NCBI RefSeq assembly: GCF_001570785.1
Contig: NZ_BCSI01000010.1
Location: forward strand, 1-64,000
Source of the DNA: Dermabacter hominis NBRC 106157
GTDB lineage: Bacteria > Actinomycetota > Actinomycetes > Actinomycetales > Dermabacteraceae
Direction of reading: 5' to 3'
Length of the DNA stretch: 64,000 nucleotides
Shown: positions 7,361 through 58,631 of the stretch, piece after piece
Layout of the letters: every line of letters starts with the position of its first letter
How positions within the stretch are numbered: the first letter of the stretch is position 1
Translations under genes and position numbers: made by a program
Notes under the pieces: generated by a model
The model's database searches: none
Told to the model about the DNA's origin: nothing
What the model saw: the letters and a program-made list of their open reading frames with translations, nothing else

Positions 7361-8029
7361 ATGACCCCCGATCGCCGAGCAGCCCGTCGCACGGCCGATC
7401 CATCGCCGGATCACGGCGCCAGAGTCAACCTCACGCGGGCACGCGGAGAGCGTACCCGCGAGGTCATCCTCGAGGAAGCGACGCTCCTGTTCTCCACGTA
7501 CGGCTACCGTGGCACGTCGCTTCGCGATATTTCCGAGCGCGTGGGAATCTCCCACCCGGGTATGCTCCATCATTTTTCCCGTAAGGAAACCTTGCTCCAG
7601 GCGGTCCTCGAGCGCGTGGCACACCATTTTGAAGAGCTGATCGATGACTTTGTCGAGACGGCGCAAGAGCCCGCGGCGATTCGTGACTGGGATGCGGTGC
7701 GGCAGTACCAGTCCGTCATGTTCGCCGTCGTGAGGGCCGAGGCTGTCGAAAAAGATCACCCCGGTCACGAAGCGATCGTGGGAATGCAGACGATGGCAGA
7801 AGAGAAGCTCACCGCCCTCTTTGAGATGTACGAAGAAAAGGGCTGGCTCGACGAAGGTGCGAGCCCCGAGTGGATTGCCCGCTCGATCGTCGCGATGTGG
7901 ACGGGGGTCTTCATGCGCGATGCCCTCATGGGCGATGGCCTCTATGACCATGACCTCTCGATTTTCTTGCGCATGTTTGTGATCCCGCTGCGCGAGGCTG
8001 ATCCGTTTACCCCGACGAGTGGAAAGTAG
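7361..8029 (+). CDS. TetR/AcrR family transcriptional regulator
   Basis: 222 aa with an N-terminal TetR helix-turn-helix (about residues 25-72): RTREVILEEATLLFSTYGYRG, then TSLRDISERVGISHPGMLHHFSRKETLL. A variable ligand-binding half follows with a typical TetR C-terminal arrangement. The ATG at 7361 has TAGGAG at good spacing; a longer in-frame start at 7295 lacks support. The gene is followed after 5 bp by a PRC-barrel gene, probably its operon partner. The regulated target is not evident. It is in the same direction as asd, but 186 bp of non-coding sequence separates them, so it probably has its own promoter. Confidence 0.9.
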   Translation: MTPDRRAARRTADPSPDHGARVNLTRARGERTREVILEEATLLFSTYGYRGTSLRDISERVGISHPGMLHHFSRKETLLQAVLERVAHHFEELIDDFVETAQEPAAIRDWDAVRQYQSVMFAVVRAEAVEKDHPGHEAIVGMQTMAEEKLTALFEMYEEKGWLDEGASPEWIARSIVAMWTGVFMRDALMGDGLYDHDLSIFLRMFVIPLREADPFTPTSGK

Positions 8030-8034
8030 CGTGT

Positions 8035-8379
8035 ATGGCGACCGAGGTTGAGCTTGATCGACTCCGCAACGCTCTCGTGCGCGATGCCTCCGGCGGGCGC
8101 CTCGGCAAAGTGTGCGAAATTTTCCTCAATGATCGCACTCAAAAAATCTCTTTTGTGACAATTGCACTCGGGCCTTTTGGCACGCGTGAAATCTATATTC
8201 CCTACGAATATATTGACCTTGATGAAAGCGGCCCCAGAACCGCGGTTCGGCGCGAAATTCTCGAGGAGGCCCCGCGCGCGAACGGGCTCGGCCATTTGAC
8301 GTTCACGCAAGAAGAGCAGTTGCGCGAATACTACGAGTCGGCCGTGATCGCCGACCCGCATTCGTCGCCGCACGATTGA
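8035..8379 (+). CDS. PRC-barrel domain protein
   Basis: A 114-aa soluble protein. Residues 5-70 (ALVRDASGGRLGKVCEIFLN, then ISFVTIALGPFGTREIYIPY) match the pattern of a PRC-barrel: a conserved G-x-x-G-K/R-V start, alternating beta strands and a final IPYEYIDL strand. The acidic tail is not conserved. In actinobacteria such small PRC-barrel proteins are common and mostly uncharacterised. It lies 5 bp after the TetR gene with a GGAAAG site upstream, so it is probably co-expressed with that regulator. Confidence 0.7.
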   Translation: MATEVELDRLRNALVRDASGGRLGKVCEIFLNDRTQKISFVTIALGPFGTREIYIPYEYIDLDESGPRTAVRREILEEAPRANGLGHLTFTQEEQLREYYESAVIADPHSSPHD

Positions 8380-8402
8380 TTGGTGTGGGCTCGAGTGGTC
8401 GC

Positions 8403-8419
8403 GGCGACCGTCGGAAACC
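8403..8419 (+). repeat. Copy of the dispersed CCGTCGGA motif
   Basis: GGCGACCGTCGGAAACC, one of the near-consensus copies of GGCAACCGTCGGAACC scattered through the window. It lies in the 191-bp gap between the PRC-barrel gene and ugd, about 150 bp upstream of the ugd start. Confidence 0.5.
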
Positions 8420-8570
8420 AGACGTTGTTAACGGGCGCGTGAACGGCTGAAAGTACGCGGTGAATTCTCGGTAACCCGGGCCAGGGTGTGAGTGTGCGGT
8501 CGGTAGGGTCGAATCAATGACGGTTTTTCGTCGTCAAAGATTCGCTTACTGATTCGTCGCAAGGATACAT

Positions 8571-9905
8571 ATGAAAATCTCGGTTATTGGGCTCGGATAT
8601 CTTGGCGCAGTTCACGCGGTATGCATGGCGGAACTGGGGCACGATGTCGTGGGGATCGATGTGGATACCGAGAGGATTGCCAAGCTTGAGCGCGGTGAAG
8701 CGCCATTTTTCGAGCCCAGTTTCCCCGAAAAACTCTCCGCAGCTCTCGAGCGCGGAAATCTCCATTTCTCGACGGATCTTGCGGATGTGCGCGAGTGCGA
8801 CGTGCACTTTGTGTGCGTGGGCACGCCGCAGGGGTCCGACGGCTCCGCGGATCTCACCGCCCTCCATGCTGTACGCAGAGGCCTTGGGGAAGTTCTTGCA
8901 GGATCAACGCGCGACAGGATCCTTGTGGTGGGCAAGTCGACCGTGCCCGTCGGAACAGCGCGCGGCCTCAGCGAGGCTTTTGCGGATCTTCCGAACGTCG
9001 AACTCGCGTGGAATCCGGAGTTTTTGCGCGAGGGGTACGCGGTGAAAGATACTCTCGGTCCGGATCGCCTCGTGTACGGCGTGCATGAGGAGCAGAAGTT
9101 TTCCATCACGCATCTCGACGAGGTGTACGCCTCGATCCTCGAGGCCGGCACGCCTCGCCTTGTGTACGGGTACGAGAGTGCCGAGCTCGTGAAGGTGAGC
9201 GCGAATGCGTTCCTCGCAACGAAGATCAGTTTCGTCAACGCGGTCGCGGAGATGTGTGAGGCGACGGGCGCCGACGTTGTCGAGGTTGCCGAAGCGATCG
9301 GTCTCGATGAGCGCATTGGCCGACGCTTCCTCAAAGCCGGCATCGGCTTCGGCGGCGGGTGTCTCCCTAAAGACGTGCGGGCCTTCATTGCGAGCGCGGA
9401 GGAGCATGGGGTGGGGGAGTCCTTCGAGTTTCTCCGCAACGTTGATCGCATCAATCAGAAGCGTCGCGCGCGCCCCGTGGAGCTCGCCCTCGAGTATTTC
9501 AACGGGGATCTGACGGGTGTGCCCATTACTGTTCTCGGCGCCGCGTTCAAGCCCTATAGCGATGACGTGCGTGATTCGCCCGCGATCGACATCGCTCTTT
9601 CCCTCGCACGTCACGGTGCGGATGTGCGCATCACGGATCCGCAGGCTCTCGCGGTCGTGCGAGGCCGCTACGAGGAGTTGAGCCTCGTGGACGATCTCGA
9701 GGAAGCCATGAGCGGCGCGCGCTTGCTCATCCTCGCGACGGAGTGGCAGGTGTACCGCGACCTTGATCCTGCTCGTGTCGCGGAGCTCGTGGCCGAGCGT
9801 GCGGTGATCGACGGACGCGGGGTCTTCGATCTGGCCCGCTGGCGCGAGGCCGGCTTTACGATCATGGCGCTTGGGCGTGGGGAGAGGGCCGGGAGGCTCG
9901 CCTAA
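8571..9905 (+). CDS. ugd: UDP-glucose / GDP-mannose 6-dehydrogenase family protein
   Basis: Oxidises a nucleotide sugar (most likely UDP-glucose to UDP-glucuronate) with two NAD+. The protein is 444 aa with three domains in the usual order. The N-terminal Rossmann domain has ISVIGLGYLGAVHAVCMAELGH (3-24, interrupted here for brevity) and VCVGTP. The central helical domain contains GKSTVPVGT and EFLREG. The catalytic Cys264 sits in GFGGGCLPKD. The C-terminal UDP-binding domain has LGAAFKPYSDDVRDSP. AAGGAT precedes the ATG by 6 nt. Its neighbours rfbB and rfbD suggest a role in envelope polysaccharide. UDP-glucose is favoured over GDP-mannose only by general family resemblance. Confidence 0.9.
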   Translation: MKISVIGLGYLGAVHAVCMAELGHDVVGIDVDTERIAKLERGEAPFFEPSFPEKLSAALERGNLHFSTDLADVRECDVHFVCVGTPQGSDGSADLTALHAVRRGLGEVLAGSTRDRILVVGKSTVPVGTARGLSEAFADLPNVELAWNPEFLREGYAVKDTLGPDRLVYGVHEEQKFSITHLDEVYASILEAGTPRLVYGYESAELVKVSANAFLATKISFVNAVAEMCEATGADVVEVAEAIGLDERIGRRFLKAGIGFGGGCLPKDVRAFIASAEEHGVGESFEFLRNVDRINQKRRARPVELALEYFNGDLTGVPITVLGAAFKPYSDDVRDSPAIDIALSLARHGADVRITDPQALAVVRGRYEELSLVDDLEEAMSGARLLILATEWQVYRDLDPARVAELVAERAVIDGRGVFDLARWREAGFTIMALGRGERAGRLA

Positions 9906-10958
<1,053 letters not shown>

Positions 10959-10967
10959 GGAATGCCC

Positions 10968-11873
10968 GTGTCCCACGACTTTGCATCCCCGCCTGCCGAA
11001 CGCGAATGGCAAGAAGCGGCCTCCTCGCCCGAGCGGACCCTCGTAGTGGGTGCCGCGGGACAACTGGGGCGAGCTCTCCAGGGTTTGTGGCTCGGTCGCG
11101 ACGACGTTGATTTCGTGGACCGCGAGGTCCTCGATGTCGGCGCCCATGACTCCATCGCCGCCTTTGATTTCTCGCCCTACAGGGTGATCGTGAACGCCGC
11201 GGGCTACACCGATAAAGACGGCGCGGAAAGTGCCGAAGGGCGCCGCGAAGCCTGGGCGGTGAACGCCAAGGGCGTTGCACTTCTGGTCTCGGCCGCGCGT
11301 GAGGCGGGCGCCGTGCTTGTGCACATCTCGAGTGACTACGTGTTCGACGGTTCGGTCGCGTTCCACACGGAGGAGGAAGGCTTCGCCCCACTCGGTGTCT
11401 ACGGACAGACGAAAGCGGCCGGTGATGCCGCGGTCTCGACTCTCGATACGCACTACATTCTCCGCACGAGCTGGGTTGTCGGCGAGGGTAAGAACTTTGT
11501 CGCGACGATGCGCGAACACGCCACCAACGGCGACTCGCCCTCGGTCGTGAACGACCAGTTTGGACGATTGACCTTTACGGATGAAATCGCGCGTGCGATC
11601 GATTTTGTGCTGCGCACCCGGGTGCCGTTCGGCACCTATAACGTGACGAACTCGGGCGATATCACCTCGTGGTTCGAGATTGCGCAGAGAGTGTACGAGC
11701 TCACGGGGCACGACCCGGAGAACGTTCAAAGCGTCTCAAGTGCCGAATACCTCGATACACACAAGGGCATCGCGCTTCGCCCCATTAATTCCGCGCTCGA
11801 CCTGAGCAAAATTACCGAGGCGGGCTTTCACCCGCGCGATCAGTTCGAGGCGCTCGCCGCGTACCTGGCCTAG
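10968..11873 (+). CDS. rfbD: dTDP-4-dehydrorhamnose reductase
   Basis: Last step of dTDP-L-rhamnose synthesis. The reductase domain starts near residue 24 with TLVVGAAGQLGRAL and continues with NAAGYTDKDGAES, ISSDYVFDG and GVYGQTKAAGD (YxxxK). There is a leading stretch of about 22 residues rich in Ser/Pro/Glu. Many actinobacteria fuse the RfbC epimerase in front of RfbD; here only this short leader is present. I prefer GTG 10968, because AAGGA ends 6 nt upstream; an ATG at 10962 abuts the Shine-Dalgarno. The stop overlaps the stop of the convergent surface-protein gene by 4 bp. Confidence 0.9.
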   Translation: MSHDFASPPAEREWQEAASSPERTLVVGAAGQLGRALQGLWLGRDDVDFVDREVLDVGAHDSIAAFDFSPYRVIVNAAGYTDKDGAESAEGRREAWAVNAKGVALLVSAAREAGAVLVHISSDYVFDGSVAFHTEEEGFAPLGVYGQTKAAGDAAVSTLDTHYILRTSWVVGEGKNFVATMREHATNGDSPSVVNDQFGRLTFTDEIARAIDFVLRTRVPFGTYNVTNSGDITSWFEIAQRVYELTGHDPENVQSVSSAEYLDTHKGIALRPINSALDLSKITEAGFHPRDQFEALAAYLA

Positions 11874-13060
11874 CTATTGCGGCGCATTAGCACGATCGCG
11901 CCCGTAGCCGCGAGGCCGAGGCCCGCAATCACACCGCCGATGAGCCATGCGACCGATAGGCCGAGCGGTTGCCGTGAAGGATCGGTGATGAGCTGGGTGG
12001 AGCCCTTCTCCGGCTCCTCTTGAGGTTGACCGGGCGTCGGGCTCGGGGTTGGGCCTGGTCTGACGATGCCGCCAGCATCGCCGTTGCCACTCGTGCCGTG
12101 GTGGCTGAGTTTCGAATAGTCGCTTCCCACGGCGCCGAAGTCGGCTGAGCGTCCGTAGCCGCTTCGCTGGGGAATGCGGGACATGGCGGAGGGGCGAGAG
12201 CGCACGAACCTCGATCCGCCAGCTTCGGTTGACGATCCTTCGGGCTCACCCGTTTGTTCGCGAGAGGGCGTCGTCGAGGGTTCGGTGCTGCCGGGGCTGT
12301 CGCTCGGATCGGCGGGGAGCGGCGCTTCCGTTTCAGGGCGAGGGGAAGGGCGCGCTGGCGAGGATGGGGACGCCGGTTCCGTTGGTGAAGGCGCAGGTTC
12401 CTTCGTGGGATCCGGCTTCGGGGTGGCGGTAGGCTCCGCAGTTGGTTTGGGATCCGGCGTCGGCGTGGGGGTTGGATCGGGTTGATCCGTGGGGCTTGGC
12501 TTGGGCTGTTCCGTTGGGCTTGGCGAGGGCTGCTTGGTGGGATCGGGCGTTGGCGTCGGTTCAGGAGTCGGGGTTGGCGTCGGCTCAGCCGGCTCGGTGA
12601 TGGTGACCTGCGCGCTAGACTTTGTGCCGCCCTCGAGTGGCGCGACAGTGACCGTGTAATTTCCGGGCTCTGCGATGACGAAGGTTACGCTTGCACGCCC
12701 GCTGGCGTCCACAATCGCGGTGTCGCGCGAATAACCGAGCGGCGGGAGCTCGACGGGCTTGCCTTCGGCGGGGGTTGCGGTCGCTTCGACTTCGACGGCT
12801 GGATCGGCGCGGCGGTATTCGCCTTGCACCTGCGTGCCTTCCTTGAGGCCGCATACGAGTGCCGTAAACGCCTTTCCCTTTTCGACCTTCGCTTCGGAAA
12901 GGGTGACGGTTCCCGGTGTGCAGGTGGTGTCGACAGCAAAAGCGCTTACCGTCTCAAACGGCGCCGTACCCGAGATCGCGATTGCCGAGGCGAGCACACT
13001 CGCTCCTACGACGACACCGCCCAGGCGGCGGCGAAGCGCAGTCGTGCGGGGCTGGGCCAT
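11870..13060 (-). CDS. Secreted, membrane-anchored Pro/Thr-rich surface protein
   Basis: 396 aa. A basic N-terminus (MAQPRTTALRRRLGG) and hydrophobic stretch form a signal peptide ending near AFA-VD at about residue 42. A small domain with two cysteines (CTPGTVTLSEAKVEKG to ALVCG) and beta-rich sequence up to about residue 160 resembles an Ig-like or adhesin module. A long Pro/Thr/Glu stalk with PTPTPEPTPTPDPT and SPTEQPKPSP repeats follows, then a Ser/Gly-rich part. A C-terminal membrane helix (SVAWLIGGVIAGLGLAATGA) ends in LMRRNS. No LPXTG is seen, so it is probably held by the helix. GAGGA precedes the ATG at 13060. Function unknown. Confidence 0.8.
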   Translation of the reverse strand: MAQPRTTALRRRLGGVVVGASVLASAIAISGTAPFETVSAFAVDTTCTPGTVTLSEAKVEKGKAFTALVCGLKEGTQVQGEYRRADPAVEVEATATPAEGKPVELPPLGYSRDTAIVDASGRASVTFVIAEPGNYTVTVAPLEGGTKSSAQVTITEPAEPTPTPTPEPTPTPDPTKQPSPSPTEQPKPSPTDQPDPTPTPTPDPKPTAEPTATPKPDPTKEPAPSPTEPASPSSPARPSPRPETEAPLPADPSDSPGSTEPSTTPSREQTGEPEGSSTEAGGSRFVRSRPSAMSRIPQRSGYGRSADFGAVGSDYSKLSHHGTSGNGDAGGIVRPGPTPSPTPGQPQEEPEKGSTQLITDPSRQPLGLSVAWLIGGVIAGLGLAATGAIVLMRRNS

Positions 13061-55306: not shown

Positions 55307-55382
55307 GCTGAAGTAGCTCAGTTGGTAGAGCAGCTGTCTTGTAAACAGCAGGTCGTGGGTTCGAGCCCCATCTTCAGCTCCA
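55307..55382 (+). tRNA. tRNA-Thr (anticodon TGT)
   Basis: A 76-nt cloverleaf with acceptor stem GCTGAAG/CTTCAGC, D-stem and loop around TAGCTCAGTTGG, anticodon loop CTTGTAA (anticodon TGT at 55340-55342), T arm GGTTCGAGCCC and an encoded CCA at 55380-55382. It decodes ACA and related threonine codons. Confidence 0.97.
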
Positions 55383-55580: not shown

Positions 55581-57546
55581 ATGACCGCCGCACCGCAGAC
55601 CGCGCGCACACTCGCCACCCCCTTCACGATCAACACCGTCGAGATCCCCAACCGCCTTGTCATGACCCCCATGGGCAGCGACCTCGCAAATCCCGACGGC
55701 ACGGTTGGCCCGCGCCTTCTCAAGTACTGGCTCGAACGCGCCGAAGGAGGCTGCGGCCTCCTCATCAGCGAGGTCACGCGCATCAACGACGAGCACGGCC
55801 CCGGAACTCCCAACCAGCTGTCCGTCACGCGCGACGAACTGGTCCCGCAGCTCGCGGAAGCCATCGAGGCGGTCCATGCGCGCGGCACAAAGATCTTCCT
55901 GCAGCTCCAGCATCCCGGCAACCAAGGGCATTCCGCAGCTCAATAAAGGGCAGGTGACCGTCGGACCTTCCGCCGTTCAATCTCAGCTCACCAAGGCCCC
56001 CGTGCGCGCCCTCGAGAATGACGAGGTCAAGAGCCTCGTGCAGGACTTCATCAACGGCGCGCGCCGCGCTAAAGAGGCCGGAGCGGACGGCGTGGAGATC
56101 CACGGCGCCCACGGCTACCTCATTGACGAATTCCTTTCTCCGCACACCAACAAGCGTGAGGATGAATATGGCGGCTCATTCGAGAACCGCTGCCGCTTCC
56201 TCGTCGAGATCCTCGACGGCGTGCGCGAAGTCGTGGGCCCCGATTTCCCGATCTCGGTGCGCCTTTCGGTATCGCAGTGCTACGACCTTATCGGCCTGCC
56301 CGGCGAAGGCAACGAAGTCGCCGACGGTGTGCGCATCGCGAAGGTCGGCGAGGAGCACGGCGCCGACCTGATCTCGGTGTCCACCGGCACCTATGAAACG
56401 GGCATCACCGTCATCGAGCCCGTCAACACCCCGCGCAACTGGCGCGACCCGATCATTCGCGCCGTTCGCGACACCGTGAGCATCCCTGTCATGGGCGTAT
56501 CGATCATCCGCGAACCCGAGCAGGCCGAAAAAATGCTCAACGACGGCCTCGTGGACCTCATCGCGATGGGCCGCTCGTGGCTCGCCGACCCGCAGTGGGG
56601 AATCAAGGCCATCGAGGGCCGCGACGCTGACATCACGCGCTGCATTGGCTGCATGTACTGCTTCGAGGCGCTCTTCTCTGGCGGCCACATCGAATGCGCC
56701 GTCAACCCGCGCTGTGGGTTCGAATCGGAGTTCCCGCTCGAGCCCGAGCGCAACGCCGAAGGTCGCACGGCTCTCGTGATCGGTGGTGGCCCCGCGGGCT
56801 GCGAAGCTGCCGAAACACTCGCGAAGCGCGGCGCGAAAGTCACCCTCGTCGAGGCGATGGATACCCTCGGCGGCCAGGTCGTGCCCGGCACCAACCCGCC
56901 CGGCAAGGGCCCGATGGGCTGGCTCGTCGAGAACTACACCCACCGTCTTGAGAAGGCCGGCGTTGACGTGCGGCTGTCGACTCGTTTCGGGGTTGAGGAC
57001 GTGCGCGCGTTCGGTGCTGACGCCGTGATCGTCGCGACCGGCGCAGCCCCGGTTGTGCCGAACATTCCGGGCATCGATGGCGACAATGTGGTGGATGCGA
57101 TCGATGTTCTGGGTGGTACTCGCGAGGTCGCGGGCCGCGCGATTGTAGTGGGGTCCGGCATGACCGGCCTCGAAACCGCTGAGCTGATTGCGGCAAACGG
57201 TGGCGAGGTCGCCGTGTACGAGATGGCGCCGGAGCTCGGAGCTGGCGCGTTCCACATGAACCTCATCTCGGTCACCTCGAAGCTCAAGAAGGCCGGCGTC
57301 CCCATGAACACGGGGCACCGTCTCGTGGAGGTGACCGGCTCGGGCGCGGTGTTCGAGGCCGACGGTTCCCAGCTCACCGTCGATGCCGACACGGTCGTGC
57401 TCGCGATCGGCATGCGCAGCGAGAATAGACTCGCCTCCGAGCTTGAGGCTGCGGGAATCGAGTTCCGTACCGCGGGTGACGTGTCGAAGGTGGCGAAGGT
57501 TGCTCAGGCGGTGGCTACGGGGTACCGCGTGGGCCTCGAGGCCTGA
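55581..57546 (+). pseudogene. Frameshifted old-yellow-enzyme / 2,4-dienoyl-CoA-reductase-like flavin oxidoreductase
   Basis: Two frames together make one protein of about 654 aa. The first frame (ATG 55581, AAGGAA upstream) encodes TPFTINTVEIPNRLVMTPMG through LQLQHPGNQGHSAAQ and stops at 55946. The second continues QLNKGQVTVGPSAVQ through the barrel, the iron-sulfur cysteines RCIGCMYCFEALFSGGHIEC and a Rossmann FAD/NAD domain (VIGGGPAGCEAAETL, VVGSGMTGLETAEL) to 57546. One extra base near CATTCCGC (about 55930-55935) explains the break; removing it joins H-S to Q-L-N-K-G. It could be a sequencing error, a real pseudogene or, less likely, a programmed shift. Similar enzymes reduce enoyl compounds and carry FMN, FAD and a 4Fe-4S cluster. 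Confidence 0.85.
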
Positions 57547-57844: not shown

Positions 57845-58573
57845 TCAGTCGCGGCTTGCCTTGAGCGCTGCCTTCACCGTCGCGCGTACGAAGTCGTTGA
57901 AGCCTGCCGCATCGATGAAGCCCTGGATCTCGAGGTGAGTCCACCCGTGGGCGCTCGCCCACACGGCGCGCAGGAGCGTTGTGGCGTCGGAGGGGGAGGT
58001 GTCGACGGTGGCGCCGTACTTTGTGCGGCCTTCCGACATCGCCTGTGCGAGGTGCTTCGCGATGCTTTCGAATTCGTCGATATCGGTGCCGAGTGCGCGG
58101 AACGCCGTAAGCAAGTGGTTGTCTCGACGCGAGAGGCCAAAACCGATGGGCTCTGAGGTGGCGTCGGAATCCTTGGCGACTACTGCGCTCGCCGCTCCCG
58201 GTGCCCCATTGGCCTGCGCTGCCCGATCAGGAACCTGGTCGGCCTGGTTGAAGATCACGTCAAACAGTTCGGGGTTGCTGACTGCCCAGTCGTGGAGGGC
58301 GGTTGCGAGCCCAACCAGGTAGTCTTCCGGATCCTGGTCGCGCTTTACCTCGCTGAGGTGCTTCGCGAGATCGCTGGCGGAGCTGACAACGACAGAGTTG
58401 AGGAGCTGCTTTTTCCCGCCGAAGAGTGAGTAAATGGCGGTAGTTGAGGTGTTGCAGGCCGCGGAGATGTCGCGGAGGGAGACCGCTGCGGGGCCGCCTT
58501 TAGCCAGCGCCTTTGACGCTTCTGCGATGAGCTCGAGACGGAGCTCTTCGTCGTGGTGGCGGGGGATGTTCAT
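57845..58573 (-). CDS. TetR family transcriptional regulator with TetR_C-like extension
   Basis: 242 aa. The helix-turn-helix is near residues 10-58: ELRLELIAEASKALAKGGPA, VSLRDISAACNTSTTAIYSLF and GGKKQLLNSVV. The C-terminal half has ALHDWAVSNPELFDVIFNQ and ASAHGWTHLEIQGFIDAAGF, similar to the TetR_C_WHG family. A long internal insertion (AQANGAPGAASAVVAKDSDA) is probably disordered. ATG 58573 is the sensible start; an upstream TTG extends by 5 residues. It converges on the old-yellow-enzyme gene and is probably its local regulator, with sites at 55507 or 58632. Confidence 0.88.
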   Translation of the reverse strand: MNIPRHHDEELRLELIAEASKALAKGGPAAVSLRDISAACNTSTTAIYSLFGGKKQLLNSVVVSSASDLAKHLSEVKRDQDPEDYLVGLATALHDWAVSNPELFDVIFNQADQVPDRAAQANGAPGAASAVVAKDSDATSEPIGFGLSRRDNHLLTAFRALGTDIDEFESIAKHLAQAMSEGRTKYGATVDTSPSDATTLLRAVWASAHGWTHLEIQGFIDAAGFNDFVRATVKAALKASRD

Positions 58574-58631
58574 TCCCGTGGACTCCAATCAGGTGTGCCT
58601 TGTGGCAGGTCCGGTATGTAACGACTTCGTA

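Follow-up and report, generated by a model that had tools for sequence, protein, structure and literature searches.

A one-base frameshift splits a flavoenzyme gene of patchy distribution in a draft genome of Dermabacter hominis

Introduction

An old-yellow-enzyme-type gene in the skin-associated bacterium Dermabacter hominis NBRC 106157 is read in two frames, which raises the question of whether the bacterium has lost the enzyme, whether the break is an error of the draft sequence, or whether both frames are still translated, either as one fused protein or as two polypeptides. The window, by which is meant the whole 64,000-base stretch of DNA that was analysed, comprises bases 1–64000 of one contig (C10) of a draft genome of 2,155,270 bases in 28 contigs. 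No paper in the library searched names both 'Dermabacter' and 'old yellow enzyme'. The reading favoured here, to which a probability of roughly two in three is given, is a recent null mutation in an apparently dispensable flavoenzyme gene that is patchily distributed in its family and has been damaged independently in other lineages.

The gene and its break

The whole split gene occupies 55581–57546 on the plus strand. It was compared with the copies in two genomes of the same genus (G001, a single contig, and G003) and in one from another genus of the same family (G010), each species being represented by one genome.

55581–55946, plus strand: first of the two open frames of the flavoenzyme gene, from ATG at 55581 to TAA at 55944–55946; 121 residues by translation
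55924–55925, plus strand: frameshift site, a pair of A against one A in G001, G003 and G010 in pairwise and multiple alignments
55924–57546, plus strand: remainder of the flavoenzyme gene, read in the +1 frame and translating to 540 residues with no internal stop

The first piece, whose start aligns with the starts in G001 and G003, holds the N-terminal third of the Oxidored_FMN barrel (Pfam, 1.1e-18; profile positions 2–107 of 342). The second piece, which ends in TGA at 57544–57546, holds the rest of the FMN barrel (profile positions 118–340, 4.3e-51), the cysteine cluster and the FAD/NAD(P)H domain, and matches Pyr_redox_2 (8.9e-32; 111.1 bits against a cut-off of 26.1). Both pieces belong to PF00724 by score (68.1 and 174.6 bits, cut-off 27), and the intact G001 copy reaches 251.5 bits. 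Given the way in which the profile is divided between the pieces, the break falls inside the FMN barrel. A preliminary description, made from the letters of the window, had the frame stopping at 55946 in the middle of the TIM barrel, about 540 residues continuing in the next frame and the remainder of the gene undamaged, and each of these points holds up: the second piece and the G001 protein share 92% identity across all 540 residues, so that no further damage is seen.

The surplus base itself can be placed by alignment. G001 (86% DNA identity, 1749/2031) and G003 (85%, 1726/2033) each have one base fewer at the site, and G010 also lacks the extra base in the multiple alignment. The extra base is private to the D. 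hominis genome and the frame is open here in both congeners, as would be expected of a recent pseudogene. A comparison with sister strains had been recommended at the outset; at the level of the genus, both congeners are unbroken through the site. The preliminary description was right that there is one base too many, but its placement near CATTCCGC (55929–55936) has to be moved, since the A pair lies four to five bases 5' of that sequence. Its mended peptide, GHSQLNKGQ, is also replaced: the relatives' peptide at the site reads GNQGIPQLNKGQ or GNQGLPQLNKGQ, with isoleucine or leucine at the variable position. In its single-base indel, its premature stop, the integrity of the rest of the gene and the intact frame in relatives, the locus has the features of a frameshift pseudogene.

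Likely function of the intact gene

By score the intact gene encodes a two-part flavoenzyme, with an FMN barrel followed by an FAD/NAD(P)H domain, of the broad 2,4-dienoyl-CoA-reductase-like group; its protein resembles 2,4-dienoyl-CoA reductase, BaiCD and 2-naphthoyl-CoA reductase. The best NCBIfam match of the G001 protein is BaiCD, the bile acid Fe-S flavoenzyme (NF041087), which is matched over nearly the full length and in the same domain order. The score of 473.9 bits is far under the curated cut-off of 825, however, and no BaiCD assignment is therefore made. The long form of bilirubin reductase (423.3 bits, NCBIfam cut-off 750) and mycofactocin OYE 2 (425 bits, NCBIfam cut-off 793.15) fall short in the same way. 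Among solved structures, the nearest by sequence are 2-naphthoyl-CoA reductase NCR (PDB 6qkg) and the 2,4-dienoyl-CoA reductase of E. coli (PDB 1ps9), both of which share the FMN barrel and FAD/NAD(P)H domain at low identity to the Dermabacter flavoenzyme, and in both of which the first cysteines are spaced C-x2-C-x3-C, whereas the G001 protein (L003:1159-3120) has C-x2-C-x2-C. Outside the family, the best among the matches listed are about 40% identical and come from Clostridium oryzae, Anaerococcus and an Enterococcus plasmid, a distribution that would fit horizontal acquisition.

Neighbourhood and the dispersed motif

The gene is flanked by the following features.

55307–55382, plus strand: tRNA-Thr (TGT), the upstream neighbour, called by ARAGORN
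57845–58588, minus strand: TetR-type regulator, the convergent neighbour (Pfam TetR_N, 4.1e-9; TetR_C_33, 1.3e-10)

Between 57546 and 57849 of the window, a 298-codon gene that is present in G001 and G003 is absent, and short weak matches are all that is found there. The G001 protein encoded by that neighbour matches DUF559 (26.3 bits, cut-off 20.6) and has an endonuclease-like C-terminus.

The preliminary description had also drawn attention to a copy of a dispersed motif at 55953, just after the break. It did not spell the motif out, and GGTGACC is taken here as its presumed identity. If that identity is correct, the motif occurs at chance level and can be set aside as a cause of the frameshift: 11 copies lie in the window, whereas shuffling gives a mean of 8.75 (sd 3.39), with 11 or more copies in 32 of 100 shuffles.

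Distribution and damage of the other copies

Among the 47 genomes of the family, an orthologue at E<=1e-100 is found in four (D. hominis, G001, G003 and G010). Three of the four genomes of the genus have the gene, and the fourth, G002, gives no DNA-level match to it. The protein search yielded four matches to the gene in the D. hominis genome and, among the matches listed, the gene itself is the only one from that genome; weaker paralogues are present there.

Damage is seen in three of the four orthologues and takes a different form in each, namely the frameshift of D. hominis, a loss of two bases near the 3' end in G003 and transposon insertions in G010, which leaves G001 as the sole undamaged copy. 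The two bases missing from the G003 copy (L032:4517-4790) replace the last 12–13 residues and add 54 codons of low-complexity tail. Shifts of this type, in the last 100 bases, are flagged in 3 of 130 long genes of D. hominis, so that the damage in G003 is hardly exceptional, and the protein may remain active.

An element carrying a DDE_Tnp_1 transposase (L079:7330-9130, open reading frame 7410-8972) breaks up the G010 copy; the element has 72-bp direct repeats on both sides and 16-base inverted ends. A passage in PMC2266710 gives comparably long repeats, 8–514 bp, for IS1549/IS1634. Judged from its long direct repeats, the G010 element is probably of the IS1549/IS1634 kind. The same copy is truncated at its 5' end, where an rve/HTH_21 transposase lies (10390-11367, plus strand; L079:10052-12622). 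An IS110-type transposase (11396-12622, minus strand) follows the rve/HTH_21 transposase in L079.

Selection and the age of the break

Both halves of the gene have evolved under purifying selection, with dN/dS of 0.04–0.08 in every comparison. Over the 113 codons of the upstream piece the values are 0.076 (D. hominis and G001), 0.078 (D. hominis and G003) and 0.053 (G001 and G003); over the first 525 codons of the downstream piece they are 0.063, 0.062 and 0.041 in the same order. These downstream values were obtained after the G003 copy had been cut before its own damage. With the frame-shifted end of that copy included, D. hominis gives 0.063 against G001 and 0.077 against G003, so that trimming lowers the G003 values and leaves the odds placed on the readings unchanged.

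Since dN/dS is this low throughout, any loss must be recent. Raw counts of lineage-specific changes in the second piece (replacement/silent) are 24/90 in D. hominis, 6/54 in G001 and 11/67 in G003, and the slightly higher replacement count in D. hominis would be compatible with constraint having been lost earlier. Overall, the substitution pattern points to strong constraint on the gene until recently.

Recent loss or sequencing error

The consequences of the surplus base are readily predicted. A one-base insertion in codon 115 would shift the frame, the ribosome would meet TAA eight codons past the first altered reading, and the product would be a fragment of 121 residues lacking most of the barrel. 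We infer that the surplus base is present in the cell's own DNA and that the product is inactive; the enzyme would then most likely have been lost in D. hominis.

The principal competing account, which we consider possible but clearly less probable, is that the cell's gene is intact and that sequencing or assembly introduced the extra A. This account needs just a single-base change, and a draft in 28 contigs may harbour one such base in one gene; the gene is otherwise undamaged and under purifying selection, as expected of an intact gene. Both damaged congeners, D. hominis and G003, are moreover drafts, and the intact G001 is a single contig. The site, on the other hand, is an AA pair and not a long homopolymer, and the gene is missing or damaged in other relatives too. 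That pattern of damage and absence favours a real loss over an error, although it does not prove one.

A further argument comes from the frequency of frame breaks elsewhere. When the genes of G001 were compared with about 430 kb of the D. hominis genome, 262 were kept. Of these, 225 were full and 5 frame-split; 16 ran off the edge of a stretch and another 16 were partial. Two of the five frame-split cases are in long genes (the flavoenzyme gene and a gene at L098:5469-7880), and three are in short open reading frames. A DNA-level scan tested 234 genes, 130 of them with at least 300 codons, and flagged 23, most of which lie at the 5' edge of longest-ORF calls or are short open reading frames. 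The flags were classified for the 13 long genes among them, the other ten being open reading frames of fewer than 300 codons. Seven of the 13 are flagged within the first 120 bases of the longest-ORF call, which is probably over-long in these cases, three within the last 100 bases and one in an unmatched N-terminal stretch; the other two are the L098 gene and the flavoenzyme gene. The L098 gene has an uninterrupted 803-codon frame in D. hominis, and this frame is interrupted in G001 around codon 405, which puts that break on the G001 side. The flavoenzyme break is the sole one clearly internal to a gene on the D. hominis side among the 130 conserved genes sampled that have 300 codons or more.

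The corresponding scan of G003 tested 75 genes and flagged 8, including the flavoenzyme gene for its 3' end. Of 74 genes of G001 that are conserved in G003, 47 are intact in the window, 22 are absent from it, 4 give partial matches and 1 is split mid-gene. Clear internal breaks are thus rare in the sampled long genes of D. hominis, which speaks against a generally error-rich assembly, riddled with indels; a single base is not cleared by this. The preliminary description had called the event either recent or an assembly error, and that pairing is a sound one, as the relatives are unbroken at the site, both halves are under purifying selection and such a break is unusual in this genome.

Two polypeptides or one

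A different possibility is that both pieces are translated separately, the second from a start directly behind the premature stop.

55945–55956, plus strand: AAAGGG followed by GTG (55954–55956) in the second frame, a candidate re-initiation site, from the sequence and the alignment

The GTG at 55954 stands 8 bases past the premature TAA, with AAAGGG 4–9 bases ahead of it, and it is private to the D. hominis genome, the relatives having GTC. The insertion would on this account have created a translationally coupled two-cistron pair, encoding either a flavin barrel in two parts or a C-terminal NAD(P)H/FAD reductase that stands on its own. We regard both gene fission and a coupled pair of this kind as very improbable. 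The GTG is one substitution among many at 14–15% divergence, its occurrence by chance would be unremarkable, and no homologue is split at this point. We know of no barrel split after its first third that reassembles.

Programmed frameshifting, which would fuse both frames into one protein and for which the openness of the +1 frame from 55705 (hence an overlap of about 240 bases between the two frames) can be cited, is weaker still and is rejected here. Homologues with the same frameshift and a slippery site, named beforehand as the mark of a programmed event, were not found: the shift is shared by none of the three aligned relatives (G001, G003, G010), and inspection by eye around the site shows neither a canonical slippery heptamer nor a site like that of prfB. 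The RNA of 55880–56000 offers no stimulatory structure, as its fold is less stable than expected from shuffled sequences (z +1.59), 194 of 200 of which equal or exceed it in stability.

Implications

With copies in relatives that are intact or differently broken, the locus is better explained by an ordinary recent loss or a sequencing slip than by a new mechanism. General understanding is unchanged by it, and the case is an ordinary one of low significance. If the preferred reading of a recent null mutation is correct and the break is real, annotators should mark the gene as disrupted, and D. hominis would provide a further case of the recurrent erosion of a patchy flavoenzyme gene within this family of actinobacteria from skin and the environment.
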